Assembly (NCBI GenBank): GCA_023257515.1
Contig: JALRCA010000049.1
Location: 1 to 35,882 of the forward strand
Direction of reading: 5' to 3'
DNA length: 35,882 nucleotides
From: Aeromicrobium sp.
GTDB lineage: Bacteria > Actinomycetota > Actinomycetes > Propionibacteriales > Nocardioidaceae
The notes beneath the pieces are model-generated. The model saw only the letters and a program-made list of their open reading frames with translations, did not search any database and had not been told where the DNA came from. This document shows, piece after piece, positions 7,014 through 35,882 of this stretch; within the stretch, counting starts at the first letter, position 1; each line of letters starts with the position of its first letter. A program made the position numbers and the translations under genes.

Positions 7014-10000
7014 TCAGCCGACGAGCTGCTCCAGGATCGTGGGGTCCTTGATCTTCTCGTCCCGCGCGAGCAGCACCACCTTGGCCACGACCTCGGCGGT
7101 GCGCGGGTCGTCGTCCGCGAAGGGCAGGAAGATCCGTCCTCTGTGCTGGGCCGAGACGGGGACGATGCACACCGCGTTCCCCGGGACCCGGTGCACCACG
7201 CCGGAGCCGAGGTGGACCGAGTACGTCCCCAGGGAGCCCTTGATCCGTGCGTGGTGACCCGCGACCTCGACGTTCGTCATCCCCAGGAGCGACGTCGTCT
7301 CGTCGACGAGTCGCCCTCGCACCTCGATCGACGACTCCGACGTCCCGGGGTCGACGCCGCTCGAGTGCGCGACCGCGGCCACGAGGTCGAGATCGCGCAT
7401 CGTCTCCGAGAACACGCGCGGCGGCACGTCGGCCAGCGGCACGCTCGACAGCGTCCCGGCGCGGTGGAACGAGACAGCCTCCAGGGTCGCGTCCTCGACC
7501 TCGGTGGGCGACCCCCAGCCGTCCAGGACGTCGCACCACGCCGTGATCCTGTGCTCGTGCCAGGTCCTGGAGAAGCCGCGCTCGACGTCGGAGACCCAGC
7601 CGCGACTCGTGAAGATCCCGCCGGCACGTCTCGCCTCGAGCTGGTGCCCCGCGTAGCGCCTCGAGCGCGTCCCGGACTCGTCGCGCTCGTTCTCGTTGAG
7701 CGTGTACAGCTCGCGGAACAGCTGCTTGAACGGTTGCTTGCGCCCCTCGGACATGACCACGTGCTGCAGGGCGGGCCAGTCGCCCGAGGCGAGCAGGTCG
7801 ACGGGATGGGCGATCCGCAGGGGCGCGGTCGCGGCCACGCGCGAGCCGTCGGCTGCGACGAGCGTCGCGCCGTCGACCGGGAACCCGGCCCGACCCTCGG
7901 CGTCGATGAGGACGAGGTCGCGGAGCATCGGGGCCAGGACGGGGTGCCGGAGCAGCTCGGCGACCTCGTCCGGCGCGAAGCGCTCGCCCAGGACGCAGGC
8001 CGACTCGAGCGACGACCTCATCCGTCTCGCCTGGGACCGCAGCGAGCTGGCCCGCGCCGTGAGCTCGGCGACGGCCGGGACCTTGGCGCTCTTGGCCGGG
8101 ACGGACGCGAGCGCGCGGCCGGCGCGCTCCACCGCGAGCTCGGGCGAGCCGGCCGCGTCGATCGAGAGCGTCACCACCAGGTCGCCGTCCCGCGCGACGA
8201 CCGGCCCGTCGGCGAGGTCGCGGACGGCCTCGGCTTCCATCGCCCACACCAGACGTTGCGGATCACGGAACCCCGCGGTGCGAGCGAGGTTCTCGAGACC
8301 GACCGACACGGCCTTGGTCTCCGAGGCGCGCCGCTGCGAGCCGGAGCTGCGGTCGGAGGCCACGAACGCCCGGAGCAGCTCGTAGCGTGCGAGCAGCGCC
8401 GACGGGTCCGGGACCGGCAGGAGTCCGAGTGCTCGCACCGAGTCCTGGTGGCGCTTGGTGCGGATGCGTGTCAGGAGCTCGTCCTCGTCGACCTCGTCGA
8501 GCAGCGCGGCCGCGAACAGCTCGGCCCGCTTGTGGCCACCGGAGGACGACGCGTACTTGGCCGCGCGCAGCACCTGCCGGAACCGGTCGAGGCCCAGCTC
8601 CGCGACCATCTCGCGGAACCACGCCACGTCCGCGGCCCCGCCCACGAGGTCCACCGCGTCGAGCGGGGTCCGCTGGCTCACCTCGCTCGCCCACTGGGCC
8701 CGAACGTCCTCGTCGACCGACCATGCGTCGTCCTTGGTGTGCGCGTGCACCCACCAGACCGCCGAGCCCAGTCCCCGCCAGCCGAGGTGCTCCTCGACCA
8801 GCCCACACCACTGCGGTGCGTAGACGGCCGTCTCCACGAGCCGGGCGTCGACGACGCCCGCCCGGCCGGCCAGGTCGCCGAGGACCTGCGCGGTGTCGCT
8901 CGCTCGAGGCTGGCTCACCCTGACCAGGTGGGACAGGCTGCTCTCGCGGGAGCTGGTCCAGGCGTAGGCGCGCGTGAACGGTCGTCGACCCAGGGCGGCC
9001 AGGCACGCGACGAGCTGGTCGGCCCCCTCGACCGATCGCAGTCCCTCGGCGGTGAGCGACAGTGCCGTCGGCAGGTCGCCGCGCGCCGACTCGGCCTCGA
9101 CGACGGCCGCCCGGACCTCGGCGACGACCGCCTGCACGCGGGCACCGGCCGCCCACGGCTGGGGTCGCAGACCCGTGAGTGCCGGCAACGCCGTCTGACG
9201 ACGCCCGTACAGGTACCGTCCTGGCCGGTTCGGCATGGCGACGAGCGCGTCGACCAGGTCGGCCCGCGTCGCCAGTCCACGGTCGAAGGCCTCGACGAGG
9301 ATCCGCGCGGGCACCTGCCAGCGGTCCGGTTGGTCCGGCACCAGCTCCGTGCCACCCACGCGCGACCCACGAGGCACCGTGACCTCGACCTGGGTCCCTC
9401 CCCACCGGTCGAACGTCCCCTCGGGCTCGTCGACGAAGCGCAGGGCACGCCACAGGCGGTCGAGCTGGTCGTCGTCGAGGAGGCCGGGGTCGACGAACCG
9501 GGGCGCTCCCGCGAACAGGTCCCGGGCGGCCGTGCGAGCGTCCTCGGACTGGACGTTGCCCCACTGGTCGATCTGGAGCCGACGTCCTCGCCGTCGCAGC
9601 ACCTCATCGGGACCGACGAGCTCGTCGAGGGGCAGTCCCGCGGCGGTGGCCTCGACGTGACGGACCACGGTCTCGGCCCACGACGGTCTCCGCGCGTGGT
9701 CGGCCACGACCTCGACGACCTGCCACACCAGACGCTCGACGTCGCGGTGCAGGGCCGGCAGACCCGACCCCACGACCGTCCTCGCGACCTTCGTGGTCCA
9801 GCGACGTCTGCCCGCGGGGAGCAGGGTCAGCACCGCGAGCTCGACCCCGCCATCGGTCAGCCGGGGCTCGATGCGTTCCCACCACGGGCCGATCACCTCC
9901 GGCAGCGGCAGGGCTCCGTCGCGACCCGTGCCGAGCCAGCGCACGTTCGCCAGGAGCTCGACGCCGTCGTAGGTCTGGACCTCGACGTCGGCGTGCTCGC

Positions 10001-11774
10001 GCAGCCAGGCGTCGAGCGAGCTGAGCACGAGCGCGAAGCCCGGGTGCAGGGGCCGCCAGAGCTCCGGCCGCGGGGCGTGGGGCCGGACCGCCGGGGTCCG
10101 GTCCGCCACGCCGAAGCGGACGACGGCCGGGACGTCCGTCGCTGCGGTCGGCGCCGCGGCATCGCCTCGCAGCTCGGCGGCCGCCCGCTGCTGCTCCTTG
10201 GTGCCGGCCGCGAGTCGTTCGATCGACGCGGCCAGTCGTGCGGGGTCCTGGTCCCGGAGCAGCTGCAGGGCCGTCGTCCGGACCGCGGACGCCTTGCTCC
10301 TCAAGGCCTCCTCGAGCTGCGAGGCCTCGTCGGTCGAGATGCTCGTGAGCGACACGAGGGCGCCACCGACGACCTCCTGCACGCTCGTCGACCGGTCCAC
10401 GAGCATCGAGAACAGTGCCGCTCGGTTGGCCTCCGGACGCTCGGCGAGGCGTCGCGCCGCCCACCACCTGCCGTCCGCGGACGCCGCCGCGATGACGTCT
10501 CGGGAGACCGGCCTGTCCCCCGACTGCATGACGAGCACGTCGGCCGCGAGGGCGCCGCCGATGCGCTGCTGGAGCGTCCCGACCACGCCGATCTCGATCT
10601 CTCGGGCCCTGCCGAGAGTGCTCGCCCGCGACCACAGCTCCGTCCGAGCCGCCTCCGAGAGGGGCACCGTCAGGGATCCGTGCGTCGGCCACGCGCGCAC
10701 CGCACTCGCATACACCTCGAGGCACGGGTCACGGAGCGCGCGCTCCAGACCCGCGGCAGCACCGGCCACGTCGACGTCGGACAGCAGGCGGGCCGCGGCC
10801 GTGCGGAGCGTCTGGTCCTCGTGGTCCAGCAGCTGCTCGGCCGCGGCGATCGCGGCCTGCACGTCACGCACCGCGATCGCCCACAACCCCACGAACGCCG
10901 TCATCGCGTCGGCGTCTCGCAGCTCGGGGAGAGTCGGCTGCCGACGGAGTGCGTCGCGCATCAGCGTCAGGACTGCGGCGACCTTCTTCTCCTCGCGGAC
11001 GCCGACCTCCTCGCCGATCCAGACCGACAACGCCCGGACGGTGCCGGCGAACCGGCCCAGGCGGTGCTCGACGACGAGGTCCAGCATGCGCTCGAAGGCG
11101 TCCGGGTGGGCGAGGTCGACGGCCTCCAGGACGGCTTGGCGCAACCCCTCCGCACGCTGGGCCGCCACGAGCAGGCGTTCGACCTCGTGCCACCCCGCGG
11201 GATCGGGCGCGGCGAGGAGCGCCGCGAAGGCATGGCGCGACGGGCCGCTGATCTCGTGCTCGCCGCGGACGCTCGCCAGGAGGGTCGAGGCGACCTCGGT
11301 GTTCCCGTGCGCCATGGCCGAGGCGAACAGCTGGCCGAGCGGCGCGAGCCCGTGGAGGTGCAGGGCCCACGACGCCTGCCATGCGATCGGCTGCGGGTAG
11401 GTGACCGAGTGCTGCAGGAGTCGCTGCAGGTCGAGCCACCGGCCGGCGCGCGAGTCGGCCGGGTCGTGCGAGCGGTAGGCCCGCCGGTCGAAGTCCCGCT
11501 GGTGCGGCTGCCCGGCCGACCACTCCCACCAGTCGGCGAGGTCGGCACCCAGCTCAGGGCTGAGGGCCCGCAACGCCTTGACCCGCTTGGCGCGACCTGC
11601 GAGGTCGAGCTCGCGCGCGACGTCCTCCCCCGGACGACGTCCCTCGAGAGCCGTCACCACGGCAACGGCGAGCTTGGGCGCCAGGAGCGACTTGATGCGC
11701 ACCCCCTTGGACCGGTCCCGCTCCGACGCGGTGAAGCCCGCCAGCGCCTCCCGCGCCGCATCGCCCGCGAGCAC
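7014..11774 (-). CDS. 1586-aa HEAT-like repeat protein with C-terminal DUF4132 (MolR/YehI-like) domain
   Basis: GTG start. Helical-repeat N-terminal two thirds; C-term 'GRKQPFKQLFRELYTLNENERDESGTRSRRYAGHQLEARRAGGIFTSRGWV', typical of DUF4132 ('QPFKQ..RE.Y.LT..E'). Confidence 0.8.
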   Translation of the reverse strand: MLAGDAAREALAGFTASERDRSKGVRIKSLLAPKLAVAVVTALEGRRPGEDVARELDLAGRAKRVKALRALSPELGADLADWWEWSAGQPHQRDFDRRAYRSHDPADSRAGRWLDLQRLLQHSVTYPQPIAWQASWALHLHGLAPLGQLFASAMAHGNTEVASTLLASVRGEHEISGPSRHAFAALLAAPDPAGWHEVERLLVAAQRAEGLRQAVLEAVDLAHPDAFERMLDLVVEHRLGRFAGTVRALSVWIGEEVGVREEKKVAAVLTLMRDALRRQPTLPELRDADAMTAFVGLWAIAVRDVQAAIAAAEQLLDHEDQTLRTAAARLLSDVDVAGAAAGLERALRDPCLEVYASAVRAWPTHGSLTVPLSEAARTELWSRASTLGRAREIEIGVVGTLQQRIGGALAADVLVMQSGDRPVSRDVIAAASADGRWWAARRLAERPEANRAALFSMLVDRSTSVQEVVGGALVSLTSISTDEASQLEEALRSKASAVRTTALQLLRDQDPARLAASIERLAAGTKEQQRAAAELRGDAAAPTAATDVPAVVRFGVADRTPAVRPHAPRPELWRPLHPGFALVLSSLDAWLREHADVEVQTYDGVELLANVRWLGTGRDGALPLPEVIGPWWERIEPRLTDGGVELAVLTLLPAGRRRWTTKVARTVVGSGLPALHRDVERLVWQVVEVVADHARRPSWAETVVRHVEATAAGLPLDELVGPDEVLRRRGRRLQIDQWGNVQSEDARTAARDLFAGAPRFVDPGLLDDDQLDRLWRALRFVDEPEGTFDRWGGTQVEVTVPRGSRVGGTELVPDQPDRWQVPARILVEAFDRGLATRADLVDALVAMPNRPGRYLYGRRQTALPALTGLRPQPWAAGARVQAVVAEVRAAVVEAESARGDLPTALSLTAEGLRSVEGADQLVACLAALGRRPFTRAYAWTSSRESSLSHLVRVSQPRASDTAQVLGDLAGRAGVVDARLVETAVYAPQWCGLVEEHLGWRGLGSAVWWVHAHTKDDAWSVDEDVRAQWASEVSQRTPLDAVDLVGGAADVAWFREMVAELGLDRFRQVLRAAKYASSSGGHKRAELFAAALLDEVDEDELLTRIRTKRHQDSVRALGLLPVPDPSALLARYELLRAFVASDRSSGSQRRASETKAVSVGLENLARTAGFRDPQRLVWAMEAEAVRDLADGPVVARDGDLVVTLSIDAAGSPELAVERAGRALASVPAKSAKVPAVAELTARASSLRSQARRMRSSLESACVLGERFAPDEVAELLRHPVLAPMLRDLVLIDAEGRAGFPVDGATLVAADGSRVAATAPLRIAHPVDLLASGDWPALQHVVMSEGRKQPFKQLFRELYTLNENERDESGTRSRRYAGHQLEARRAGGIFTSRGWVSDVERGFSRTWHEHRITAWCDVLDGWGSPTEVEDATLEAVSFHRAGTLSSVPLADVPPRVFSETMRDLDLVAAVAHSSGVDPGTSESSIEVRGRLVDETTSLLGMTNVEVAGHHARIKGSLGTYSVHLGSGVVHRVPGNAVCIVPVSAQHRGRIFLPFADDDPRTAEVVAKVVLLARDEKIKDPTILEQLVG

Positions 11775-11776
11775 GA

Positions 11777-12178
11777 TCAGCCTCCGGCCAGGGCGACGAG
11801 GCGGACGAGGCGCAGCGTCGACTCGGGTCGCATGGCCAGTCGGTCGTCGAGGTCCTCGACCTGGCCGTCGTCGAGGAAGGCGAAGTAGAGGCCGTCCTCG
11901 AACGCCTCGAGCGCGCGGGCGACCGCGTCCTCCTGCGAGGGCGGCGGGGGAAGCTCGCGGGTCTCGCGTCCGTACGCGCCTGCGTCGACGCCGCGGGCCA
12001 GGTCCGCCGGCGTCAGGATCCGGAGCGTCCGACTCGCGGTCCGGCGGCGCGCGTACTCCGCGAGCTCGTGACCCACCAGCACGGGCAGCAGCTCGCGCAA
12101 CGACACGACGTGGTCGGGCACGACCACCCGCTGCGACTCGACCTCGCGGCTGCCGACGACCCTGGACTCGACGATCAC
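11777..12178 (-). CDS. Hypothetical 133-aa protein, first gene of the DUF4132 cluster
   Basis: Stop lies 2 nt before the GTG of the DUF4132 gene, so probably cotranscribed and translationally coupled. Confidence 0.7.
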   Translation of the reverse strand: MIVESRVVGSREVESQRVVVPDHVVSLRELLPVLVGHELAEYARRRTASRTLRILTPADLARGVDAGAYGRETRELPPPPSQEDAVARALEAFEDGLYFAFLDDGQVEDLDDRLAMRPESTLRLVRLVALAGG

Positions 12179-12345
12179 CCGCTCACTCTCCCACTTCCGA
12201 GGTCAGGAACAGCGGCACTTCGACGAATCACCGTGGTAGCGCGCCCAGGTCGTCCACCGCGGCGGTCACGACGGGGCCGGATGACGGATCCTGAGCACCT
12301 GCGCCCATCCGTGCATATGTCCAGGTTCTCGGCTACCGTGCTCGC

Positions 12346-12732
12346 GTGGACGACAGGAGACGCTCCGCCGCGGTCGGGGTCGGTGCGGTGGCACTTGCCG
12401 TGACGGCACTCGTCGCGATCGGCACCGGCGACTCGGAGGCCGACGAGCGCGCCGTGTGCGTGGACCGGTCCACCGACACACGTGTCGCCGACGACGACTG
12501 CGACGACGACTCTTCCGGATCCACGACCGGGGGCGGGAACGGCCCCGGCGGCGGCCACGGCTGGTACTACATCCCGTCCGGCCGCACCGCGCCGGCCGAG
12601 GGCGAGAAGATCAGTGGTCAGGGATCGTTCACGCCCCAGTCGTCCTCCTCCGTCAGGGGCGGCGTCGCCCCCGACGGCGGCGAGGTCTCACGCGGCGGGT
12701 TCTTCTCCGGCAAGAGCTCGTTCGGCGGCTGA
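12346..12732 (+). CDS. Small secreted/lipid-anchored-like protein resembling DUF1190 (YgiB/YjfM) in layout
   Basis: GTG start; N-term hydrophobic helix, Cys pair 'CVDRSTDTRVADDDC', Gly/Ser-rich body with C-term 'RGGFFSGKSSFGG'; directly precedes the GSP-synthase-like gene (E. coli ygiB-ygiC layout). Confidence 0.7.
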   Translation: MDDRRRSAAVGVGAVALAVTALVAIGTGDSEADERAVCVDRSTDTRVADDDCDDDSSGSTTGGGNGPGGGHGWYYIPSGRTAPAEGEKISGQGSFTPQSSSSVRGGVAPDGGEVSRGGFFSGKSSFGG

Positions 12733-12735
12733 CGC

Positions 12736-13953
12736 ATGCGCCGCATGACGTCCGAGCCCCGCGAGGACTGGCTCGCGAAGGTCGAGGCCGAGGGGTTGAC
12801 CTACGCGGTCGACCGCACCGAGACCGGTCAGTCGCTGCCCTACTGGGACGAGTCGGCGTACTACGTGCTGAGCACCGACGAGATCGACCACCTCGAGCGC
12901 GTCACCAACGAGCTCCACACAATGGCCCTGCAGGCCGCCGCCCGCATGGTCGACGACCCGAGGTTGATCGAGCGGCTCGCCCTGCCGCCGGGCTCGCGTG
13001 CGCTGCTCGCCCGGTCCCTGCGCGACCCGGACGAGGTCTCGGTCTACGGCCGCTTCGACCTCGCCTGGGACGGCACGGGAGACCCCAAGCTCCTCGAGTA
13101 CAACGCCGACACGCCCGCTGGTCTGGTCGAGGCCGCCGTCTGCCAGTGGACCTGGCTCGAGGAGACCCATCCCGACCTCGACCAGTGGAACATGGTGCAC
13201 GAGCACCTCGTCAAGCGCTGGACCGAGCTGCGCGCCTCGGGCGTCGAGGTCGTCCACTTCGCCGTGGGCCAGCAGGAACCGACCGAGGACTGGGTGACCG
13301 TCGCCTACCTGCGTGACACCGCGCAGGAGGCCGGGCTCGAGACGCGTGGCACCACCATCGAGGAGATCGGCTGGCACCACCGGCACGAGGTCTTCGTGGA
13401 CTCGCAGGACCTCGCCATGACGCACTGCTTCGCGATGTACCCGACCGAGTGGATGCTCGACTCGCCCTTCGGCGAGCACCTGATCGACGGTCGCGGTGGC
13501 ACGCGGTGGATCGAGCCACCGTGGAAGCTCCTGCTCGGGTCCAAGGCGCTCCTCCCGGTCATGTGGGAGATGTTCGCGGGCCACCCGAACCTGCTGCCGT
13601 CGTACTTCGACGCGCCGTACGCGATGCGGCGCTACGTCACGAAGCCGGCGTTCGGCTGGGAGGGCGACGGTGTGGCGATCCACGGTGCGGGAGTCTCCGA
13701 GGCCGTCGAGGCGACCCACACGGCCGGTCAGGAGCTGATCTACCAGCAGTACACCGAGCTGCCCGACCTGGACGGGAACCATCCGGTGCTCGGGACCTGG
13801 GTCGTCGGCGGGCGACCCGCCGGGCTCGGCGTCCGGGAGTCGCGCGAGCTCATCACGAACACCCGCGCTCGATTCGTGCCGCACCTCATGGATGCACCGC
13901 GTTCCACCTCCGACCAGGTCGAGGCCTGGTTGGCCGAGACCCCGCACCGCTGA
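12736..13953 (+). CDS. Glutathionylspermidine synthase-like ATP-grasp protein (YgiC/YjfC family)
   Basis: 'YAVDRTETGQSLPYWDESAYYVLS', 'YGRFDLAWDGTGDPKLLEYNADTPAGLVEAAVCQWTWLE', 'IEPPWKLLLGSKALLPVMWEMFAGHPNLLPSYFD' are family-typical. Confidence 0.92.
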   Translation: MRRMTSEPREDWLAKVEAEGLTYAVDRTETGQSLPYWDESAYYVLSTDEIDHLERVTNELHTMALQAAARMVDDPRLIERLALPPGSRALLARSLRDPDEVSVYGRFDLAWDGTGDPKLLEYNADTPAGLVEAAVCQWTWLEETHPDLDQWNMVHEHLVKRWTELRASGVEVVHFAVGQQEPTEDWVTVAYLRDTAQEAGLETRGTTIEEIGWHHRHEVFVDSQDLAMTHCFAMYPTEWMLDSPFGEHLIDGRGGTRWIEPPWKLLLGSKALLPVMWEMFAGHPNLLPSYFDAPYAMRRYVTKPAFGWEGDGVAIHGAGVSEAVEATHTAGQELIYQQYTELPDLDGNHPVLGTWVVGGRPAGLGVRESRELITNTRARFVPHLMDAPRSTSDQVEAWLAETPHR

Positions 13954-13980
13954 TCGTCCCGTCGACCCGAGGAGAACCTG

Positions 13981-14400
13981 ATGGACCTGCTGGAATCCGT
14001 GGGCTACGCGCTGGCCTACGCCGTGGTCGGCATCGTCGTCCTTGGGGTCGGCTACACCGTCCTCGACCTCTTGACGCCCGGCCATCTCGGCCGACACATC
14101 ATGGAGGGCTCGCTGAACGCGGCCGTCGTGACGGCCTCGGGGATCCTCGGCCTCGGTCTCATCGTCTGGACCACGATTTGGCACCACGGCGACGCTGCCT
14201 TCGGCGAGGCACTTGGGTGGACGATCGTCTTCGGCCTGCTCGGCGTCGCCATCCAGGCTGTCGCGTTCAGGCTCCTCGACCTCGTGATGCCCGACGACCT
14301 GGCGGCCACCGCCATGGAGAAGTCGTTCCACCCGGCGTCGCTCGTCGCTGCCGCGACCCAGATCTCGGTCTCGCTCGTCGTCGTGGCCAGCATCGCCTAG
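13981..14400 (+). CDS. DUF350 family membrane protein (YjfL-like)
   Basis: Four hydrophobic segments in two tandem halves; RBS 'gaggag'; immediately downstream of the GSP-synthase-like gene. Confidence 0.85.
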   Translation: MDLLESVGYALAYAVVGIVVLGVGYTVLDLLTPGHLGRHIMEGSLNAAVVTASGILGLGLIVWTTIWHHGDAAFGEALGWTIVFGLLGVAIQAVAFRLLDLVMPDDLAATAMEKSFHPASLVAAATQISVSLVVVASIA

Positions 14401-14900
14401 GACGTGAAGCTCGACGGGAAGCCCCACCACGGCCCCTCGGAGGGGTCCAGGACCTCGCGCCTCAGGACGACGCCCTCGGTCTCCTGAGACGCCGAGACCC
14501 TCGACAAGGCGACGAACGTCCCACCGACGCCCACGAGCCGCGAAGCCTCCTCACGATCGGCCTCGACGCCGAAGGCGTCACGGACGATGCTCCGGACCTC
14601 GTCGAGGTGCGGGGTCTCCCGGCTCAGGACCCAGCGCGCGCCGCCGTGGGCGAAGACCGTGGCCGACCCCATCATCACGAGGAGGACGGAGGTCGCGGCC
14701 ACGAGCGGCAGCCCGACGAACGTCGCAAGCATGGCGACCCACGAGACGACGATCGCGACCATCCAGACGATCCACCGCGCGCGGGTGGACCGACGGTTCC
14801 GGCTCTCGACCTCGGCCGCGGCGGCGTCCCAGACCACCTGGTCGACGACAGCGGACGGCTCGTCCTCGCTCCGCTGGTCCGGGTCCATGACCGACATCAT
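14397..14900 (-). CDS. Hypothetical two-TM membrane protein
   Basis: Frame of ORF 14397..16496 starting at MM (14900) or MDPDQ (14888); 'RWIVWMVAIVVSWVAMLATFVGLPLVAATSVLLVMMGSATVFA'. The upstream part of that ORF is antisense/out-of-frame to real genes. Confidence 0.7.
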   Translation of the reverse strand: MMSVMDPDQRSEDEPSAVVDQVVWDAAAAEVESRNRRSTRARWIVWMVAIVVSWVAMLATFVGLPLVAATSVLLVMMGSATVFAHGGARWVLSRETPHLDEVRSIVRDAFGVEADREEASRLVGVGGTFVALSRVSASQETEGVVLRREVLDPSEGPWWGFPSSFTS

Positions 14901-26538: not shown

Positions 26539-27346
26539 ATGGAGTCGCAAGCAAGCAGCCAGCTCAGCAGTGACGGTCCACTCCGCATCCTGCTGAACGG
26601 TCACACGCCTACGGGCGACGACCTACATCACCCGGCTCTGATCAACTACGGGCATTTCACTTCGATGCAGGTCCGCTCAGGCAAGGTTCGTGGCCTCCAC
26701 CTGCACCTCGAGCGGATCGAAAGATCCCACCGAGAGCTGTTTGGCCACGGGATCGACCTAGACCACGCACGCGACCTGATGCGCCTCGCCGCAGACGGCA
26801 TGCCCGACTCCTACCTACGCACCACGTTCTTCGAGCAGAACCCCGGTCAACTGTCCGTCATGACCGTGCAGAGACCTCCGGTTGCCGCCAATACCGAACC
26901 GGTCTCTCTGCTACCCGTCGAATACCAGCGACCTGTCGCCCACCTCAAGCACGTCGGGACGTTCTGCAAGATCTTCCACGCCGTCCAGGCCGAACGCGCA
27001 GGCTTCGACGACGCACTCCACATCAGCTTCGACGGCTTCATCTCCGAGACAACAGGCGAGAACATTGGCTTTCTACGACGGCACTCGGGTGGTATGGCCG
27101 ACGCAGCCCTCGCTTCCCGGCGTCACATGGCATCTCCTCGAGACGGCTCTGACTACCAACAAATTGCATTCCGCGAGGGAGCCGGTGAACCTCAGGGACG
27201 TCGGCCAATTCACCGCCGCGTTCCTTACGAACTCGGTGGGTGTGTCGCCCGTTGGTCGGATTGGGACGGTGCAGATGGGAGACGTGACGCAGATCGTCAC
27301 TGAGCTTAGCTCCGTCTACGAGCAGATCGCCTGGGATGACATTTGA
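26539..27346 (+). pseudogene. Class-IV aminotransferase (PLP, BCAT/ADCL-like), interrupted by an apparent +1 frameshift near 27070
   Basis: RBS 'ggagg' and ATG 26539. Frame A 'LLNGHTPTGDDLHHPALINYGHFTSMQVRSGKVRGLHLHLERIERS...HLKHVGTFCKIFHAVQAERAGFDDALHISFDGFISETTGENIGF' continues only in frame B: 'FYDGTRVVWPTQPSLPGVTWHLLETALTT...'. Confidence 0.8.
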
Positions 27347-27704
27347 CCCCCGGCCGTTCCTGACCCTCGAACGCCCCCGGAGACACCTCTCATGGGAAAA
27401 GAAGGAACCACGGCCCTCAAAGGACCGTGGTTCCAACGATCTACTTTTGGTAGTCCTGGCCCAGGCGAATCCCAACACCGCTGCCCTCCTGTCAGCCCCT
27501 TCCGCTCGCTCGGCTGAATCGCCCGCGGAGAGACGGGGCCGCGCGCGTCTGAGTTCGCGGCAACTGGCCGAGATCGAGGACTTGTACGTGCGAGGCTGGA
27601 GCACGAGGCGGATCGCCCGCCACTTTGACATCGGCAAGACGACTGTCCTGAATGTGCTCAAGCGACGGGAAGTCGAGTTGCGCCCACAGGGACGAACCAC
27701 TTAG
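27336..27704 (+). CDS. Stand-alone helix-turn-helix protein resembling the C-terminal DNA-binding domain of serine recombinases; true start uncertain, probably downstream of the 27404-27434 hairpin
   Basis: 'RLSSRQLAEIEDLYVRGWSTRRIARHFDIGKTTVLNVLKRREVELRPQGRT' is Hin/resolvase-HTH-like; the first ~40 residues look non-protein-like. Confidence 0.5.
   Translation: MTFDPRPFLTLERPRRHLSWEKKEPRPSKDRGSNDLLLVVLAQANPNTAALLSAPSARSAESPAERRGRARLSSRQLAEIEDLYVRGWSTRRIARHFDIGKTTVLNVLKRREVELRPQGRTT
27404..27434 (+). terminator. Strong stem-loop downstream of the aminotransferase
   Basis: Perfect 10-bp arms GGAACCACGG / CCGTGGTTCC, followed by 'aacgatctacttttgg'. Confidence 0.65.
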
Positions 27705-27714
27705 CGAAGCTTCC

Positions 27715-30700
27715 TTACAGTCGCTCGGACTTCGCGATCGCGTCACCCACGCCGTAGACGCCCAGTTCGAGCAAGGCATCCAGCACATTCAGTAGGGCCG
27801 CCCGATGTTCCCTGTCGCGCGACTGAGCGAGCCCGCGAACCACCAGTTCGCTGATGTAGTGAGCATCTCCCGCGGCGCCCGTGCGAAGGTCCGCAGCATC
27901 TGCGCCGAACAGGTTGATGAACCGCTGCGCAGCCTTCAAAACCAAGTCATCGACCTTGTCTGGCGCGTGCTGCAGGGTCAACAAGAGCTGTGGTGTGGCG
28001 TGGTCGTAAGCCGGCGAGTCGATCAACGCAGCGAGTAGGTCGGCAAAGGGACGAAGCTGGTGATTGCGCAGATGGGGAGCAACTCTGGCGACCGCCTCAA
28101 GCACGGCGGCATCTTCGTCGTTCATCAGCGTTCTGAGGGTGGTCATTGCGAGCGCCGCGTTCGACGTCCGGTCAACGCGATTCGCACATACTTCAGCCAC
28201 TCCCTTGCGGGACATGGCATCACCTTCGAGCGCCTTCGTGAGCAAGTCCGGACGGCCCCACTCAAGCCCAGCGAAAGCTGCCAGGACTCCCCCAGCTTCC
28301 CGTGCCTCGGCGTCTTGCGAGGCGAGCATGCGCTCGATAACCGGCGTGACAACGTCCGGATCGACGTTGCCGATGTAGAGCATCAGGCGTTGCACCATTC
28401 CGGCTGCCAGGATTCGGTCGTCGGCATCGATCAGCTTCTCAAACGCCGAGGCGGCATCCGGGCGGGCATGGCGAAGGGCAGCCGCGAGCGTGTGGGCGGC
28501 GCTCGACCTGACGAAGAGCACAGGGTCGCTCGCGAGCGTGTCGAGATGCGGTCGGACTAGCTCAGTACGTTCACCTTCGGCGTCGTAGACCAACAAGTCA
28601 CCCAGAGCCTCCGCAAGGCTGCCACGACCCGTGTTGATGGCGTTGTTGTGCATGTCAGCGGCAGCTCTACCGTCGTCCCCGTCGCGAGTGAAGATGGGCG
28701 AGTCATCCTCGGGGTCGGGCGAGTGGAGGGCACGCTCGAGCAGCAACTCGACGAGATCAAGCGGAACGTCGCTGTAGTAGCGCCGAAGAGAGTTGCCCAG
28801 CCATCGGTCGACGTCGTCGTGTCCGAGCGACGCAAGATGCCGCACAGCGTCGAAGATCAGTGGTGCGGCTTCGTCCGATCGCTCAGCGTCTGCGAAGCCC
28901 ATTAACAGGCCGTCGGCGAACGCTGCATTGAGCTCGGGCGTGACATTGAGGGCCAGCAGGGCGAATCGCTTCGGATCGGCCTTGGCTTCCTCGCGCAGAA
29001 CGTGGGACAACTCCCGAGCACCGCCCGTGAAGTTACTCCAATCCGTTCGATCATCGTTGTGCCTTATCATGGCCTTAAGCCATTGGTCGTCGGACATCTT
29101 GGCGGCTGCCTCTGACCCGATCGGAGAGCCGATCATGCCCCCAGTTACGCCACGAGGTTCGGCAGGTGCGTCTTCGTCGAACTTGCGGCGGTACTCGCCC
29201 AGCCTGCGGGTTCCGGCCTCGGTCAGCCTGTCTTCCTCGAGAGCTGACATGAACGTGAACGCCGACCGTCCGAAGCTATACCGATTCTCATAGGCGTTTC
29301 GCAGGTCTCGGAACAAGTCCTCAAGTTGCTGATGAACGTCGATGGGAAGGTGGGGTGCGATCGCCTTCACTAGTTCTCGTGCTGCCCAATCCGAGTCGGC
29401 CATGTAACCGCAGTCGAGTCGAGCGCCGCCTTCGAGGAGAAGCGTTGCGGCCCACTCGGCGAAGGTGGCTTCACCGGCCGTCAGCGCACGGTAGAGCAAG
29501 AACTGCGCCGCGTCGTGAGGATCCTCGGCGAGTTCCTCAAGCAGCGGACGAACCTCACCAGGCGCCGTCCGGGCGAGTGCTTCCAGTGCATGAACCGCCC
29601 CAGCAAAGAGCGCGTCATCGAGGTCCCTGTCATCCAGTTCGTCGACCTCGAACCGCGCACAGAAGTGCCGATCCCGGATCGGATCATCTGGGCGAGGCTC
29701 ATACGCAGTGGCCGCCATGACTCGACGCAGGTACGGGACGACTGTCTGCACGAAAGCCAGCGGTTCAGCTGCAGCAGCTTCGCGGACCAGCTCGGAGGCC
29801 CCGTACTCACGTAGACCGAGCAAAACGACCTTGCCACTTTCACCGATCGCGAGGGCGTCGGCATGCTCGATGAACCGAGCCTCGATCAACTCGATGGCCC
29901 AGAGTGGCTGCCTCTTCGCCAGGTCGTGAACCGCCAACCACAGCTCGTGCTCCGCCGCGTCAAATCCGCCCTCGCTGACTGCTGCAAGGATGAGATCGAA
30001 GAGGTTGCGGCTCAGGAACGGATCGGAGAAGCGAGCGATCCAGCGCAACCAGTTCAGATACTCCGGAGCGGATTGGCGACCACCGAGTAGTTCAGCCACC
30101 TCATCAGGCATCTCTCTCACCGCGCTCATCATGAGATTGACTGCGCGTTGCTGCAGTGTTGAGTCGCCGCTATCAAGCCAAGATGCGACGGTGCCGTCCT
30201 CGTAGAACCGCCTGAACCAGGGAACGCGTCGGGTGTGCAGCCAGAGCTGCTCCTCGTAGCTCGGCCTCGTTGCTGCTACCTCGAAGATGACCTCAGCGTC
30301 CTCACTGCTGGGCGCACCGAGGTTGGAGAGTACGGCGAGCGCCGTCTCCTTGATGTGGAAGCGCACCCGATCACTGGTCAGAACGGCTACTGCCTCCACC
30401 CTGAAGCGCTCCGGCTCTCGCTCATAGAGGTGCTGTAGGACCTGGCGAACCTGGCCTCTGCGAAACAGCTCCTGCTCGTCGCGCAACAGGAAGTCGGTCA
30501 GCGACTCGGACCGTGACACCCACTGGCGCGCGAAGGCGTAGTCGAAGAATGTCTCGTGGAAGAAGGCGATTCGGTCGCCGTCACGAGCGAGCACGTGCTC
30601 AGAAACGAGGACGTTGGCATCCTCGATGAGCTCATCTTCGTCGAGAATTTCGACGGGAACCGACAACGTCTGCCGATCGCTCGCCGCGTTCGCGACCCGA

Positions 30701-32175
30701 CTCAGCACCGCGTTGAATCGGACGCCGGCTCGCTTCGCACGGGTCATCTGGCGCTTGCGCTCCCAGTAGGCCTCGAACAGTGAGCCCCGAGATTGGAAGG
30801 CGAGTGCTTTGTCTTGGCTCGCGATCGAGTTGAGAAGGACGAGGTGCATCGGCGTCTGCAAGATCGACCGCTGTGAGGAAGTCAACTTCGTCGCGTCGAG
30901 GTCCATCGCCGTCACGGCTGCGTCGACCACCGGAGCGGCAAGCAGGCCAACTGGGACCTTCACGGCGTCTGGCCGATTCGTCAGCGAACGAATCCGGTGG
31001 TCGTTGTCGATGTCGAACTCGCGGCACGCCAGAAGGACTTTGAGTCCGCTTACAGACAGTGCCTCACCGATAAGATCCATGACCACGTCGAAGCTCTCGG
31101 GCATGCGACCGGACGCCAGACTGACGGCGTCCAACTGGTCGACCACGAGATAGGCATCGCGACCGTCCGCCGCAAGAGCAAGAACCACTGCCGGCGATGT
31201 CTCTAGGCCGAGCTGTCGGCCAAGGTCACTAGTAGATGCAAAGGATTCGAGGCGGTCGAGGCGCAACGCGAGCACGTGCGCACCCGAAGCCTCGAGCTTC
31301 TCGACGGACTGTTCCAGGACAGCGCTCTTGCCGCCTCCGGCGGCACCGGCCACTAGAGCAACCCGACGATCGCTTAGTGCTGCGATTGCCTCACTGGCCT
31401 CGCTGCGCTCAATGCGTGGCTGCAACAGTTCGCGTTGGACCGAATCGCGCCAGCTGTTAGTCACCGCGCGAACCTGCTCCCACGCACTCCGGCGTGAGTC
31501 GGCCGTCAAGGGGTGAATGCCCTTGGCCGCGAGGAGCTGTAGAAGTTCAACGCGCGTCAGTCGACGGCCCAAGTTCTCGAGCAGGATGTCACCGATGGCG
31601 AGGGCGATGAGTTCGCCGGTAGCGCCCCCTAGTTGACGCCCGGCCAGCATGGCGTTCATCCGTACGATGTCGCCCTCGCCCTGGACCGATAGCCACATCC
31701 CTCGGAGGGTGGCCCACGCCTTCTGCGGACTACCGAGGACGGAATCCGCTGCTAGTTGGTTGAACACATCCTGCAGTTCGTTTGTCAGCCAGGACTGGGT
31801 GAACTCAACGAGGTCGGCTGACTTTCGTGCCCGTTCAGCCAACTCTTGCAGCGGCCGACATGGGACCAGGGAGACGAAGTGAAAGTCGCGGCCAGCAGCG
31901 ACGTGTTCGGAGGCCGCCTCGAACACCTTGAGGTCAGCAAGAGCCTTCACAGACCAGCTATTGCTGTTGCCATTCTGACGTTTGAGCTGGTGAACCTCGG
32001 TTGCCGTACTGCTCGCAAAGGTAAACTCCGACCCCTTGCCGACTTCGGTATCCACATCTTCAAGCGTCAGCGAATGGCGATCATCGGCGATGCAGTAGAG
32101 CGCATGCCGAACTGCCCAGGCGGCCTCGTACTTGTTACCGAGCTTGTCGGCCTCACCGCCCGGCCTCGGACTCAT
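27715..32175 (-). CDS. 1486-aa multidomain NTPase: N-terminal QxK-type (PD-(D/E)XK/Cap4-like) nuclease-like domain, STAND/NACHT-like P-loop ATPase, long C-terminal HEAT-like helical repeats; predicted Avs/bNACHT-like defence protein
   Basis: N-term 'GNKYEAAWAVRHALY...LTLEDVD...ATEVHQLKRQ'; Walker A 'GAAGGGKSAVLEQ' (~31347-31324); Walker B 'AYLVVDQLDAVS' (~31155-31120); sensor-like 'KVLLACREFD'; NACHT-type winged-helix 'RIAFFHETFFDYAFARQWV' (~30561-30519); ~900 residues of repeated helical pairs. Confidence 0.75.
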   Translation of the reverse strand: MSPRPGGEADKLGNKYEAAWAVRHALYCIADDRHSLTLEDVDTEVGKGSEFTFASSTATEVHQLKRQNGNSNSWSVKALADLKVFEAASEHVAAGRDFHFVSLVPCRPLQELAERARKSADLVEFTQSWLTNELQDVFNQLAADSVLGSPQKAWATLRGMWLSVQGEGDIVRMNAMLAGRQLGGATGELIALAIGDILLENLGRRLTRVELLQLLAAKGIHPLTADSRRSAWEQVRAVTNSWRDSVQRELLQPRIERSEASEAIAALSDRRVALVAGAAGGGKSAVLEQSVEKLEASGAHVLALRLDRLESFASTSDLGRQLGLETSPAVVLALAADGRDAYLVVDQLDAVSLASGRMPESFDVVMDLIGEALSVSGLKVLLACREFDIDNDHRIRSLTNRPDAVKVPVGLLAAPVVDAAVTAMDLDATKLTSSQRSILQTPMHLVLLNSIASQDKALAFQSRGSLFEAYWERKRQMTRAKRAGVRFNAVLSRVANAASDRQTLSVPVEILDEDELIEDANVLVSEHVLARDGDRIAFFHETFFDYAFARQWVSRSESLTDFLLRDEQELFRRGQVRQVLQHLYEREPERFRVEAVAVLTSDRVRFHIKETALAVLSNLGAPSSEDAEVIFEVAATRPSYEEQLWLHTRRVPWFRRFYEDGTVASWLDSGDSTLQQRAVNLMMSAVREMPDEVAELLGGRQSAPEYLNWLRWIARFSDPFLSRNLFDLILAAVSEGGFDAAEHELWLAVHDLAKRQPLWAIELIEARFIEHADALAIGESGKVVLLGLREYGASELVREAAAAEPLAFVQTVVPYLRRVMAATAYEPRPDDPIRDRHFCARFEVDELDDRDLDDALFAGAVHALEALARTAPGEVRPLLEELAEDPHDAAQFLLYRALTAGEATFAEWAATLLLEGGARLDCGYMADSDWAARELVKAIAPHLPIDVHQQLEDLFRDLRNAYENRYSFGRSAFTFMSALEEDRLTEAGTRRLGEYRRKFDEDAPAEPRGVTGGMIGSPIGSEAAAKMSDDQWLKAMIRHNDDRTDWSNFTGGARELSHVLREEAKADPKRFALLALNVTPELNAAFADGLLMGFADAERSDEAAPLIFDAVRHLASLGHDDVDRWLGNSLRRYYSDVPLDLVELLLERALHSPDPEDDSPIFTRDGDDGRAAADMHNNAINTGRGSLAEALGDLLVYDAEGERTELVRPHLDTLASDPVLFVRSSAAHTLAAALRHARPDAASAFEKLIDADDRILAAGMVQRLMLYIGNVDPDVVTPVIERMLASQDAEAREAGGVLAAFAGLEWGRPDLLTKALEGDAMSRKGVAEVCANRVDRTSNAALAMTTLRTLMNDEDAAVLEAVARVAPHLRNHQLRPFADLLAALIDSPAYDHATPQLLLTLQHAPDKVDDLVLKAAQRFINLFGADAADLRTGAAGDAHYISELVVRGLAQSRDREHRAALLNVLDALLELGVYGVGDAIAKSERL

Positions 32176-32227: not shown

Positions 32228-32947
32228 TCACCAGGTCTCCTCGGCCAACGGTGAGCCGTTGAGCTGATCGCGCCGGCTCCGCCAATCGGGCAGGTACTTG
32301 TCCATCAGCTTCGTGAAGCGCACACCGTGGTTGCGCTCAAAGTAGTGAGTCATCTCGTGGACCACGATGTACTCGAGGCAGTCGGGGTGCTTCTTCGCTA
32401 GCTCGACGTTGAACCACAGATGACGGCTCTCGCGATTGCATAACCCCCACTTGGTCTTCATACGTCGGATCGTCCACTTGGGCACCGACACTTCGAGCGC
32501 CTGCTCCCAGGCGCTGATCACAGCGGGGAGAGCTTCGCGAAGTTGCTGACGGTGCCACCGATCGAGTGCCGTTCGGCGCTGCTCGGCCGTGGTGTCTCTC
32601 GGCGTGTAGAGCACCAGTCGGTCGCCGTCGATCTCGAAGTGGGTGTGGCCGGGTCGCTCGACAACCTTCAGTCGCTTTCGGAGTCCCCACACGTAGTGGG
32701 ACTCCCCCGTGATCATCTCGCGTGCGGTTTGTCGTGGTGCGGTCTTGAGCTGCTCGCGCTGGCGCTTGATCCAGGGCAGTCGCTGGATGACGGCGAGCCG
32801 GACCTGATCATCATCGAGTCGCTCAGGTGCCGCGACGCGCACGCGTCCGAGCGGTGGGTAGACGCCAATGTGAAGGTTCTTGATGTCCTTGTAGACGACG
32901 TCGATGTCGATCCCTCGGACGGATAGGTAGGCGCTAGCTGTACTCAT
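32228..32947 (-). CDS. YgjP/DUF45 (M48-like, SprT-type) zinc metalloprotease associated with type I R-M
   Basis: 'YIVVHEMTHYFERNHGVRFTKLMDKYLPDWRSRRDQLN' (HExxH); overlaps the hsdR 3' end by 14 nt. Confidence 0.9.
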   Translation of the reverse strand: MSTASAYLSVRGIDIDVVYKDIKNLHIGVYPPLGRVRVAAPERLDDDQVRLAVIQRLPWIKRQREQLKTAPRQTAREMITGESHYVWGLRKRLKVVERPGHTHFEIDGDRLVLYTPRDTTAEQRRTALDRWHRQQLREALPAVISAWEQALEVSVPKWTIRRMKTKWGLCNRESRHLWFNVELAKKHPDCLEYIVVHEMTHYFERNHGVRFTKLMDKYLPDWRSRRDQLNGSPLAEETW

Positions 32948-35882
32948 GGCGCGCCTTCACGAGTTCAAAGAGTTCATCGAGCTTCGCCTGGTCGAAACCA
33001 TCACCAAGGTTGACGCGAATGGCGTTCTTGACCTTGCGCTCCTTGATCGGGTTACCGACCCAAGCGTCCGGCTTGGTATGCCGGACGATGGTGTCGATCT
33101 CAATGGCGAGGTGCTCATCAGGGAAGAAGAAGTCGACCAGGGCGCGCTTAGCGCCGTTGTCGGCCCAGTCTGGGTACTTGGTGTCTGACTCCTTGGCGCC
33201 GAGTTGTTTCGCGGCGTCGAGGAGCTTGGCGAGGTACTCCTGGTAGTCGGTGGCTTGCTGACGACGTGCCTCGATGATGGCGTCGAGCAACTCGCTCATC
33301 CGGTCGTAGTACTTCGGGTTCATGGCGCGCTCGTCGATGATCACCTTGCGCATGTTGTTGGTGATCGTCTCGGCCACGGCCTCGGGGCTGTTCTTGATGC
33401 CTGCGGGCAGCTTGTCGATCGCACCGGCGCCGAGCTTGACGATGAGGTCGATGAGTCCGGTGTCTTCGAAGTTCGAGACAGTCTCGGATGCGCTGGCCTG
33501 GATGTAGGTGTCGAGCAGAAACCGCATGCCGGCTTCGTACTGCTTGAAGTCGACATCCTCGCCGGCTCCGAGCTTCACCTCTGCCCGGACATCGATGTAG
33601 TGGGCGATCTCCTTCTTGATCGCTTCTGCCTCGGCTTCGCTGTAGCCCGCCTCCGTCATCTCGTTCGCGAGGTTGGCGAAGGCACGCGTCACGGCAGCGA
33701 CCGCCTTGTAGAGCTCGACGCGTTTGGGCTCGTTGATCTTGAGCTGCTCGGCGTTGCCATGCTCCATCGCACAGAAGTACTGCTGGTACTGCAGCGTGTT
33801 CTTTGGAGGAGCGACAGGCTCGACGAGAGCACGGACGCGCTCCAGGGCGTCGTCGAGGTCTTCGCACGCCTTCTCGATGCGGTCACTGAGCAGACCGTCG
33901 ATGTCCTTCTTCTCGTACCCGTCCAGCGCTCCCGACGTGTAGTCGCTGATCGCGTCCTCGAGCGAGTTGAAGAGGTCCTGGTAGTCGATGATGTAGCCGT
34001 AGTCCTTGTCGTCACCGTCGAGACGATTGACTCGGCAGATTGCCTGGAAGAGGCCGTGGTCGCGCATCTTCTTGTCGATGTAGAGGTAGGTCGCGCTCGG
34101 AGCGTCGAAGCCAGTGAGGAGCTTGTCGACCACAATCAGGAGTCGCATCTGGCCGGGGTTCTCGACGAACTGCTCCTTGACGGCCTTCTCGAACTCCTCG
34201 ACCTTGCCAACTGCAGTGTCCTCGGGTTCGTCGAAGTAGTCAGCAAGCATCTTGCGGTAGATGTCGTACTGACGGATCTTCTCGGTCTTGCCTTCGCCCG
34301 AGTCCTCCTTGGAGATGTCGCTTGCGTTCGGGACGTAGCTGGTAACGATGGCGCACTTGCCCTTGAAACCGGCGTTGCAGAACAGCTCGTAGAACTTGCA
34401 GGCCTGGTAGATGCTGGAGCCGACAAGCATGGCGTTGCCGTGCCCATCCATCAGGCGAGGCTTGGTCTCCATGTCGAGCAGGATGTCGTTCACGATCTGC
34501 TTGGCCCGCGGCTCACTTGAGACGACCTTCTGCATGGTGCCCCAGCGCTTCTTGAGCTCGGCTTTCGAGAGGTCGGTCATGCCCTTGGTCTTGACCTCGA
34601 ACCACTTGTCCACCTGGGCGGGTGACGTGAGGTTCTGATCGATGTTGCGAGCCTCGTAGCGCAAGTCCAGTACGACGCCGTCCTCGACGGCCTCATCGAA
34701 CTTGTACGTGTGGATGAACGAACCGAAGGTTTCAATGCTGGTGGCCTTGTCGGCCTTGAGCAGTGGGGTGCCAGTAAAGCCGATGAACATCGCCCCGGGC
34801 AGGAACTGCTTCATGGCCGTGTGCATCTTGCCGGACTGGGTGCGGTGAGCCTCGTCGACGAAGACAAAGACGTTGCCCTTCGCCTTGAAGTCCTTCGGGA
34901 TCTTGGCGTTCAGCTCGGCAATGAAGTCCTCGCTAGCATCGTCGAGCCCCGGGTCGTCGTCGCCCCCTCGGAACTTGTGGACCAGAGAGCAGATGAGCCA
35001 CTCCTGTGTCTGGTTCAGCGTGCCCAGGAGGTCAGCGCCACTCGACGTCCGGTAGATCTGCTCGTTGACGCCGTTGAACACATTCTCAATCTGATCATCA
35101 AGCTCGGTGCGGTCGGTGATCAGCAGGACCCTCGCATCATCCTGATGTTCCCGAATCCACTTGGCGAGCCAGACCATCGTCAGGCTTTTGCCGGAGCCTT
35201 GGGTGTGCCAAATGATGCCGCCTTCGCGCTTCGCGATGCGCTCCTGAGCGGCCTTGACGCCGAAGTACTGGTTGTGGCGCGGGCCCTTCTTGACGCCTGC
35301 GTCGAAGACGATGAAGTCGTGAATCAGTTCAAGGAGTCGAGGCTTGTCGCACAGCTGCAGTAGGGCGCGGTCGAGCGGGTCGGCGACCTCTGACGGTTCC
35401 TTCCACTCCAGCCAGTACTTCTCAGGCGTATCGATGACGCCGTAGCGCAGGCCCTCGACATCGTTGCCGGCGAAGACGAACTGCACGGTAGAGAAGAACG
35501 GCCGGATGAACTGCTTGTCCTGGTTGCCGAGGGTCTGACGGATACCTTCAGACACCCCTACATAGGAGCGCTTGAGTTCGATGGTTGCCAAGGCAAGGCC
35601 GTTGACGTAGAGCACGACGTCAGGGCGCTTGGTGTGCTGGCCGAGCACCGTGACTTCTTCGACCACGACGAAGTGGTTGGCGTCCGGGTTCGCCCAGTCG
35701 ATGAGCCAGACCGTCTCTGTCTGCTGACCGATGCCAGGCTTCACGTGTACGCCGTAACGGAGCAGTTGATAGACGTCCCGGTTTGCCTCGTGCAGGTCAT
35801 GACCGGCACCGACCGAGGCAGCCTTGCCAAGCTGGTCGAGAGTTCTGGTGATGAGGTTGTCGTCGTAACCGCGGGCTCGCAG
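32934..35882 (-). CDS. hsdR: Type I restriction enzyme R subunit (HsdR), 5' end truncated by the window edge
   Basis: Frame is open upstream of the track start (35744) to the edge: '...GYDDNLITRTLDQLGKAASVGAGHDLHEANRDVYQLLRYGVHVKPGIGQQTETVW'. Nuclease 'DVVLYVNGLALATIELKRS'; Walker A 'HTQGSGKSLTMVWLAKWI'; DEAH 'VFVDEAHRTQSGKMH'; 'GFTGTPLL'; 'DKLLTGFDAPSATYLYIDK'. Confidence 0.95.
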   Translation of the reverse strand: MRARGYDDNLITRTLDQLGKAASVGAGHDLHEANRDVYQLLRYGVHVKPGIGQQTETVWLIDWANPDANHFVVVEEVTVLGQHTKRPDVVLYVNGLALATIELKRSYVGVSEGIRQTLGNQDKQFIRPFFSTVQFVFAGNDVEGLRYGVIDTPEKYWLEWKEPSEVADPLDRALLQLCDKPRLLELIHDFIVFDAGVKKGPRHNQYFGVKAAQERIAKREGGIIWHTQGSGKSLTMVWLAKWIREHQDDARVLLITDRTELDDQIENVFNGVNEQIYRTSSGADLLGTLNQTQEWLICSLVHKFRGGDDDPGLDDASEDFIAELNAKIPKDFKAKGNVFVFVDEAHRTQSGKMHTAMKQFLPGAMFIGFTGTPLLKADKATSIETFGSFIHTYKFDEAVEDGVVLDLRYEARNIDQNLTSPAQVDKWFEVKTKGMTDLSKAELKKRWGTMQKVVSSEPRAKQIVNDILLDMETKPRLMDGHGNAMLVGSSIYQACKFYELFCNAGFKGKCAIVTSYVPNASDISKEDSGEGKTEKIRQYDIYRKMLADYFDEPEDTAVGKVEEFEKAVKEQFVENPGQMRLLIVVDKLLTGFDAPSATYLYIDKKMRDHGLFQAICRVNRLDGDDKDYGYIIDYQDLFNSLEDAISDYTSGALDGYEKKDIDGLLSDRIEKACEDLDDALERVRALVEPVAPPKNTLQYQQYFCAMEHGNAEQLKINEPKRVELYKAVAAVTRAFANLANEMTEAGYSEAEAEAIKKEIAHYIDVRAEVKLGAGEDVDFKQYEAGMRFLLDTYIQASASETVSNFEDTGLIDLIVKLGAGAIDKLPAGIKNSPEAVAETITNNMRKVIIDERAMNPKYYDRMSELLDAIIEARRQQATDYQEYLAKLLDAAKQLGAKESDTKYPDWADNGAKRALVDFFFPDEHLAIEIDTIVRHTKPDAWVGNPIKERKVKNAIRVNLGDGFDQAKLDELFELVKARHEYS

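Follow-up and report, generated by a model that had tools for sequence, protein, structure and literature searches.

A predicted STAND nuclease is encoded at the end of a type I restriction-modification operon in Aeromicrobium

Introduction

Antiviral STAND proteins of Avs types 1–5, in particular Avs4 (PDB 8dgf) and Avs2, combine an N-terminal effector, a central STAND NTPase and a long C-terminal repeat sensor, and a NACHT-like NTPase with a winged helix also characterizes bNACHT and NLR proteins. Further traits of Avs proteins are recognition of terminase or portal, tetramerization and DNA cleavage. Restriction-modification and this NLR-like STAND immunity are usually treated apart. A suicidal nuclease within a type I restriction operon is exemplified by PrrC, the anticodon nuclease of the EcoprrI system, which fires upon inhibition of restriction. 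Other nucleases, proposed to act as backup, lie inside BREX and BREX-related modification-based defence loci; PMC12839542 describes REase, OLD-ABC, HEPN, HKD and Schlafen effectors, and its text mentions neither NACHT nor DUF4297. Here we analyze a stretch of 35,882 nucleotides (the window; contig JALRCA010000049.1 of the Aeromicrobium sp. assembly GCA_023257515.1, family Nocardioidaceae) and, within it, a gene encoding a STAND protein of 1486 residues. This gene is the last of a type I restriction-modification operon. One STAND family has been repeatedly recruited into modification-based operons, and this recurrent embedding is more interesting than the protein itself.

Set against these systems, the window protein shares the three-part plan of Avs proteins, whereas no PADLOC Avs model reaches it and its C-terminal part is a HEAT solenoid. 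By fold (NLRP3, NLRC4, NOD2) it resembles bNACHT and NLR proteins in its NTPase and winged helix, but it has no match to the NACHT Pfam model at E ≤ 1 and carries a far longer HEAT sensor. In contrast to PrrC, an ABC-ATPase anticodon nuclease, it is a putative DNase-like STAND protein, and the host systems of its family are mainly type I or type III restriction rather than BREX-related, although one family locus is of the latter kind.

Domain architecture and conservation

The open reading frame at 27715–32175 (minus strand, as are all features of the gene given below) had been put forward in an earlier note on this DNA, made from the sequence alone, as an Avs/bNACHT-like immune gene. It is borne out by full-length homologues and begins with an ATG whose position is conserved among relatives (MSPRPGG... 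in the alignment); the genome holds one full-length copy. An unbiased genome-wide search by short peptide patterns yielded 25 relatives, most of whose reading frames, 27–77% identical, align with the protein over its full length. Every motif quoted in the note is present: LTLEDVD (residues 36–42), EVHQLKRQ (60–67), GAAGGGKS (277–284), LVVDQLD (343–349), LLACREFD (381–388) and FFHETFFDYAFA (538–549).

The N-terminal region (residues 1–170; 31666–32175) is a predicted PD-(D/E)XK-type nuclease domain, based on alignments, AlphaFold2 modelling and weak profile matches. Every nuclease-bearing relative, even at 27% identity, retains residues E17, E39, E50, Q63 and K65. In LTLEDVD, which the note had read as part of a nuclease-type spacing, the conserved acid is E39, and the aspartates are not conserved. 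A helical linker in the AlphaFold2 model (residues 171–255; 31411–31665) joins this domain to a NACHT-like STAND NTPase with winged helix (residues 256–555; 30511–31410), assigned from Foldseek, a profile match to the solved structure 9n00 and a Pfam match below cutoff. The NTPase contains a Walker A motif (31324–31347; G277, G280, G282 and K283 invariant), a Walker B motif (31129–31149; D346, Q347 and D349 invariant) and a sensor-1-like motif (31012–31035; A383, R385 and D388 invariant). In the winged-helix motif (30529–30564) most alignment columns are invariant, including H540, E541 and D545. The remainder (residues 560–1486; 27718–30498) forms a HEAT-like alpha-solenoid, the putative sensor, recognized by AlphaFold2, Foldseek and profile matches. 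Judged by alignment, this motif pattern is real, under selection and beyond chance, because the named Walker A and B, sensor and winged-helix residues are invariant across the homologues (27–78% identity), and E39, Q63 and K65 are so across those that bear the nuclease.

The effector can be exchanged: in a Frankia relative (L026), a TIR domain (Pfam TIR_2, 4e-22) replaces the nuclease while the same NTPase and solenoid are retained, and another relative (L029) has a reading frame without the nuclease. In two distant homologues (L053 and L054), a split at the same position, approximately residues 1043–1050 of the query, produces two reading frames that overlap; this could be a genuine two-protein form or a common frameshift. 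A remnant of 29 codons (G592:C1:1971262–1971348; L052) that matches the beginning of the STAND protein at 79% identity is possibly the scar of a lost copy.

Predicted structure and fold matches

AlphaFold2 modelled residues 1–640 (21 sequences) with a pLDDT (predicted local distance difference test) of 89.8 and a pTM (predicted template modelling score) of 0.83, and residues 560–1486, nearly all helix, with a pLDDT of 91.1. Residues 15–102 follow the alpha-beta-beta-beta-alpha-beta order of the PD-(D/E)XK core (helix 15–30; strands 35–38, 51–54 and 59–65; helices 76–81 and 84–93; strand 97–102). Core order, acidic residues and a (D/E/Q)xK motif on the third strand all coincide in the model, which supports the proposed nuclease as a prediction. 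No Pfam nuclease model matched this domain, even at E 5, and the name DUF4297/Cap4 was rejected on this ground. In profile searches, the domain gave weak hits to the N-terminus of 9n00 (0.0012) and to that of HamA (8zue; 0.0037), a defence nuclease, and the N-terminus of 9n00 in turn matches the Lamassu effector LmuA (1e-7). The LmuA/HamA-type likeness suggested by these profiles is weak, and we keep the label at PD-(D/E)XK.

In a Foldseek search of the PDB, the best match to the model of residues 1–640 was Avs4 bound to phage portal (E 2.5e-11), followed by the NACHT modules of NLRP3, NLRC4 and NOD2 (E values for all four from 1e-11 to 1e-6). Walker A and B motifs with an acidic pair, a sensor arginine, a winged-helix histidine and an NLR-like fold identify a STAND NTPase of the NACHT-like type, complete as the note had it. 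The solenoid model retrieved importin-beta, Kap121 and CAND1, and its profile matches comprise PP2A-A HEAT, alphaRep and 9n00, so that the roughly 900 residues of helical repeats described earlier correspond to a HEAT-like solenoid of ~930 residues. TM-scores were low in both searches since long flexible chains were compared; the matches therefore support the fold class, not close kinship. By its predicted structure, the protein is Avs/NLR-like.

Relation to named families

Profile searches did not place the protein in a named Avs type, in line with the earlier suggestion that it may fall outside them. The best Pfam match of the NTPase, nSTAND_NTPase5 (7e-5), reached 23.1 bits against a curated cutoff of 34, an NCBIfam scan of the window protein returned nothing relevant, and no Avs model of PADLOC (2023 release) matched it at E ≤ 1. 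Avs2 profiles reach only distant members, at ~1e-5 and within the NTPase, and we rejected the name Avs2 accordingly. In its mode of action the protein seems to resemble Avs proteins, yet it is not filed among them.

To call it undescribed, as the note did, goes too far in view of two known counterparts. PDC-M54A, an unnamed phage-defence candidate of PADLOC (PDLC04700/04702), is of similar length (1621–1657 residues) with a similarly placed NTPase, but its match to the window protein (2e-10, 36 bits) is confined to the NTPase region (residues 255–590 of 1486); against the distant members L021 and L023 it reaches up to 3e-25 and 86 bits. The solved 'AAA family ATPase' 9n00/9n01/9yix (1523 residues) has the same domain order and an LmuA-like N-terminus and is homologous in the NTPase (profile E 4e-33), in parts of the solenoid (1.5e-19) and weakly in the nuclease, but it is distant, and E39 of the N-terminal domain is not kept in the alignment. 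A literature search on PDC-M54, 9n00 and STAND genes in restriction operons found nothing.

The host operon in the window

The STAND gene follows ygjP (32228–32947, minus strand), which encodes a YgjP-like metallopeptidase of 239 residues (Pfam PF01863, 7e-57) and ends 52 bp ahead of the STAND start. ygjP overlaps by 14 bp with hsdR (32934–35882, minus strand), the type I restriction subunit gene, which was identified by profile matches and is truncated at the edge of the contig. Another contig of this genome, C38, has hsdM, hsdS, a gene of 241 codons and the first 95 codons of hsdR at its end, and its final 141 bases match the end of the window's contig (C91) exactly. Such an overlap is what a single locus broken in two during assembly would leave. 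This exact overlap gives the operon order hsdM-hsdS-ymh-like-hsdR-ygjP-STAND, with the STAND gene as the last gene. The earlier note had missed this context, while its combination of nuclease, NACHT-like STAND NTPase and HEAT sensor holds.

The 241-residue product encoded between hsdS and hsdR (C38, locus L070, 9084–9809, plus strand) matches TIGR02391 just under cutoff (2e-9) and contains RNPLSH (R-x4-H); from its sequence we read it as a HEPN protein. A counterpart, 73% identical, occupies the same hsdS/hsdR slot in a related operon (L062, 12310–13041, minus strand). By analogy with PrrC in EcoprrI, this ymh-like protein might be a built-in RNase. Upstream of hsdM lies an apparent transposase gene (L070, 3790–4755, plus strand; DDE/IS481-like by eye), consistent with a mobile defence island.

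Recurrent linkage to modification-based systems

Four further members of the family are embedded in such systems: hsdM-hsdS-hsdR-ygjP-STAND in Geodermatophilus (L013), hsdM-rhuM-hsdS-STAND-fic-hsdR in Aegiribacteria (L023), SNF2 helicase–N6/N4 methyltransferase–type III Res–STAND in Rothia (L007), and DUF1156 methyltransferase–TPR–DUF499–STAND–DUF4209 in Armatimonadetes (L021). The last corresponds to the DUF499-centred BREX-related systems of PMC12839542. In all five loci, the window's included, the STAND gene is co-directional with its upstream neighbour and ~80 bp or less away from it. Neighbour identities in several loci are based on reading-frame calls and partial scans. A rough, unmeasured estimate of the expected linkage is <0.1% per gene (1–2 such operons per ~3800 genes), compared to 5 of ~30 loci observed.

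In a tree of the family, the window protein groups with those of Arthrobacter and Rothia; the topology does not follow taxonomy, and restriction-modification linkage changes at least four times. Counting the one in the window, ~8 full-length copies occur among 299 genomes of the bacterial family. Members are sporadic and horizontally moved, and several lie in or beside defence systems, which supports the proposed immune role. Between the window and L013, HsdR is 78% identical and the STAND protein 51%, which suggests that these two parts have evolved separately. No restriction-modification operon was detected next to the close relatives L002 (77%) and L015 (70%) in the sequence covered; some contigs are short, and absence of restriction genes is meant in this sense throughout. 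An AAA_13 (RloC/PrrC-like) gene lies 1 kb past the STAND gene of L002, the closest relative of the window protein (L002:7648–10038, plus strand).

An exchangeable slot behind hsdR-ygjP

Six genomes of the same family contain the operon with HsdR 65–88% identical, and there the gene behind it differs or is missing. The slot holds a PHP-like/SMC-like ATPase with weak matches (PHP-like 0.0055; the PHP Pfam model itself was not detected) in L061, a three-gene set including a protein that is GIY-YIG-like by eye in L062, and a Gabija-like set of a GIY-YIG-like protein (by eye), an OLD/GajA-like ATPase and a UvrD helicase in L063. HsdM- and HsdS-like genes take this place in L065 and a Tn7-like TnsA/B/C set, with the TnsB domain confirmed, in L066; in the related operon of L064, ygjP was not found. 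These differing modules indicate that the 3' end of the operon exchanges defence modules: the position behind hsdMSR-ygjP is held interchangeably by STAND nucleases, by Gabija-like pairs or by modules of other kinds.

Discussion

We favour, with a probability of roughly 0.68, the interpretation that the STAND protein is an autonomous phage-sensing nuclease of the NLR/Avs-like kind, co-expressed with restriction as a backup. In the resting cell, a NACHT-type nucleotide switch would hold the protein off. By analogy with Avs1–4, the HEAT solenoid would bind a sign of infection, which is most likely a conserved protein of the phage, whereupon ATP binding and the winged helix would release the protein for oligomerization. 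The oligomer would cluster several PD-(D/E)XK domains, and the resulting indiscriminate DNA cutting would stop phage replication, probably at the cell's cost. Restriction would form the first layer, and the STAND nuclease would be the backup for phages that evade it by modified DNA or anti-restriction proteins; as a module it would be autonomous and move between operons. The analysis itself establishes the architecture, the conserved motifs, the folds, the linkage within operons, the repeated recruitment and the exchange of effectors; sensing, oligomerization, DNA cleavage and an abortive outcome are inferred from Avs and NLR proteins.

Several points weigh against this interpretation. Restriction or modification linkage was seen in only 5 of ~30 loci and is recurrent, not obligatory. 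The whole-chain TM-score to Avs4 is low (0.28), the domain orientation being different or not predicted, and the solenoid resembles HEAT proteins in general, its 50 best Foldseek matches including no Avs structure. Both the indiscriminate DNA cleavage and the oligomer, moreover, are carried over from Avs proteins.

Alternatively, the protein could monitor the restriction-modification complex itself, or a phage anti-restriction protein attached to that complex, and fire on inhibition as PrrC does. In an extended form of this model, type I, type III and BREX-related systems would all be guarded: phage anti-restriction proteins, or restriction complexes that are stalled or inhibited, would be detected by the HEAT sensor and answered by nuclease-driven suicide. 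The same tight spacing in five operons spanning type I, type III and DUF499 systems speaks for such a guard, as do the HEPN-like ymh gene within the window's own operon and the RloC-like gene beside the closest relative. Yet no restriction-modification genes were detected beside close relatives, and orthologous operons lack the STAND gene, which suggests that each part can stand alone. Furthermore, the sensor is conserved like the rest of the protein in linked and unlinked members (78/77% for L002, 71/68% for L007), and a single sensor would need to read three unrelated enzyme types. Equal conservation of the sensor and separable parts together favour an autonomous second-layer sensor over a dedicated guard of HsdR, and we consider the guard unlikely in either form. 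Were it true, second-layer effectors of this kind would have a general docking site in the slot behind hsdR-ygjP.

It is much less probable still that the STAND protein acts in type I restriction itself, as a replacement or helper nuclease or ATPase rather than a sensor-triggered abortive system. Its gene does stand directly behind hsdR-ygjP, but HsdR, when joined across the overlapping contigs, is intact and has SWI2/SNF2 and HSDR_N domains of its own, most relatives are unlinked to restriction systems, and the architecture is that of an NLR-type switch. That the protein is a MalT/SWACOS-like transcription or signalling regulator lying near defence genes by chance is hardly credible: STAND proteins do include regulators, but no DNA-binding output domain was seen, the effector position is taken by a nuclease with invariant active-site residues or by a TIR domain, and the distribution is sporadic and horizontal with defence neighbours. 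Fold, effector swap and distribution led us to reject a housekeeping or otherwise non-immune NTPase, and a phage or prophage gene was rejected as phage records gave no match and the lone IMG/VR pattern match is not a relative.

The STAND protein has the look of an exchangeable second layer of anti-phage defence. Cooperation between the two layers, if real, would explain how cells with blocked restriction still have a reserve against phages, and hsdMSR-ygjP-STAND provides a defined operon for telling a guard from simple co-expression.

Neighbouring genes and minor observations

Other genes near family members also resemble defence genes. In Frankia (L026:4429–8709, plus strand, and 9028–14602, minus strand), the TIR-STAND gene adjoins two neighbours of JetD and JetC size; JetC3 and JetD3 models matched members of the neighbour set, and the two are probably Wadjet III genes. 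Near family members in L024 (14526–17960) and L009 (16788–21116), further large proteins appear to carry a REase-like domain at the N-terminus together with an AAA/STAND-type NTPase and possibly represent other nuclease-STAND families in the same islands. Large open reading frames beside the gene in L047 and L048 were considered as defence genes and rejected, being apparently housekeeping genes or spurious frames. In the window, a terminator-like hairpin of 14 pairs (27404–27434, minus strand) past the STAND stop is a consensus match only, the number of such sites in this region not being above chance. A small convergent open reading frame (27336–27704, plus strand) has a recombinase-type helix-turn-helix (HTH_38) and is possibly a mobile-element remnant at the island edge.

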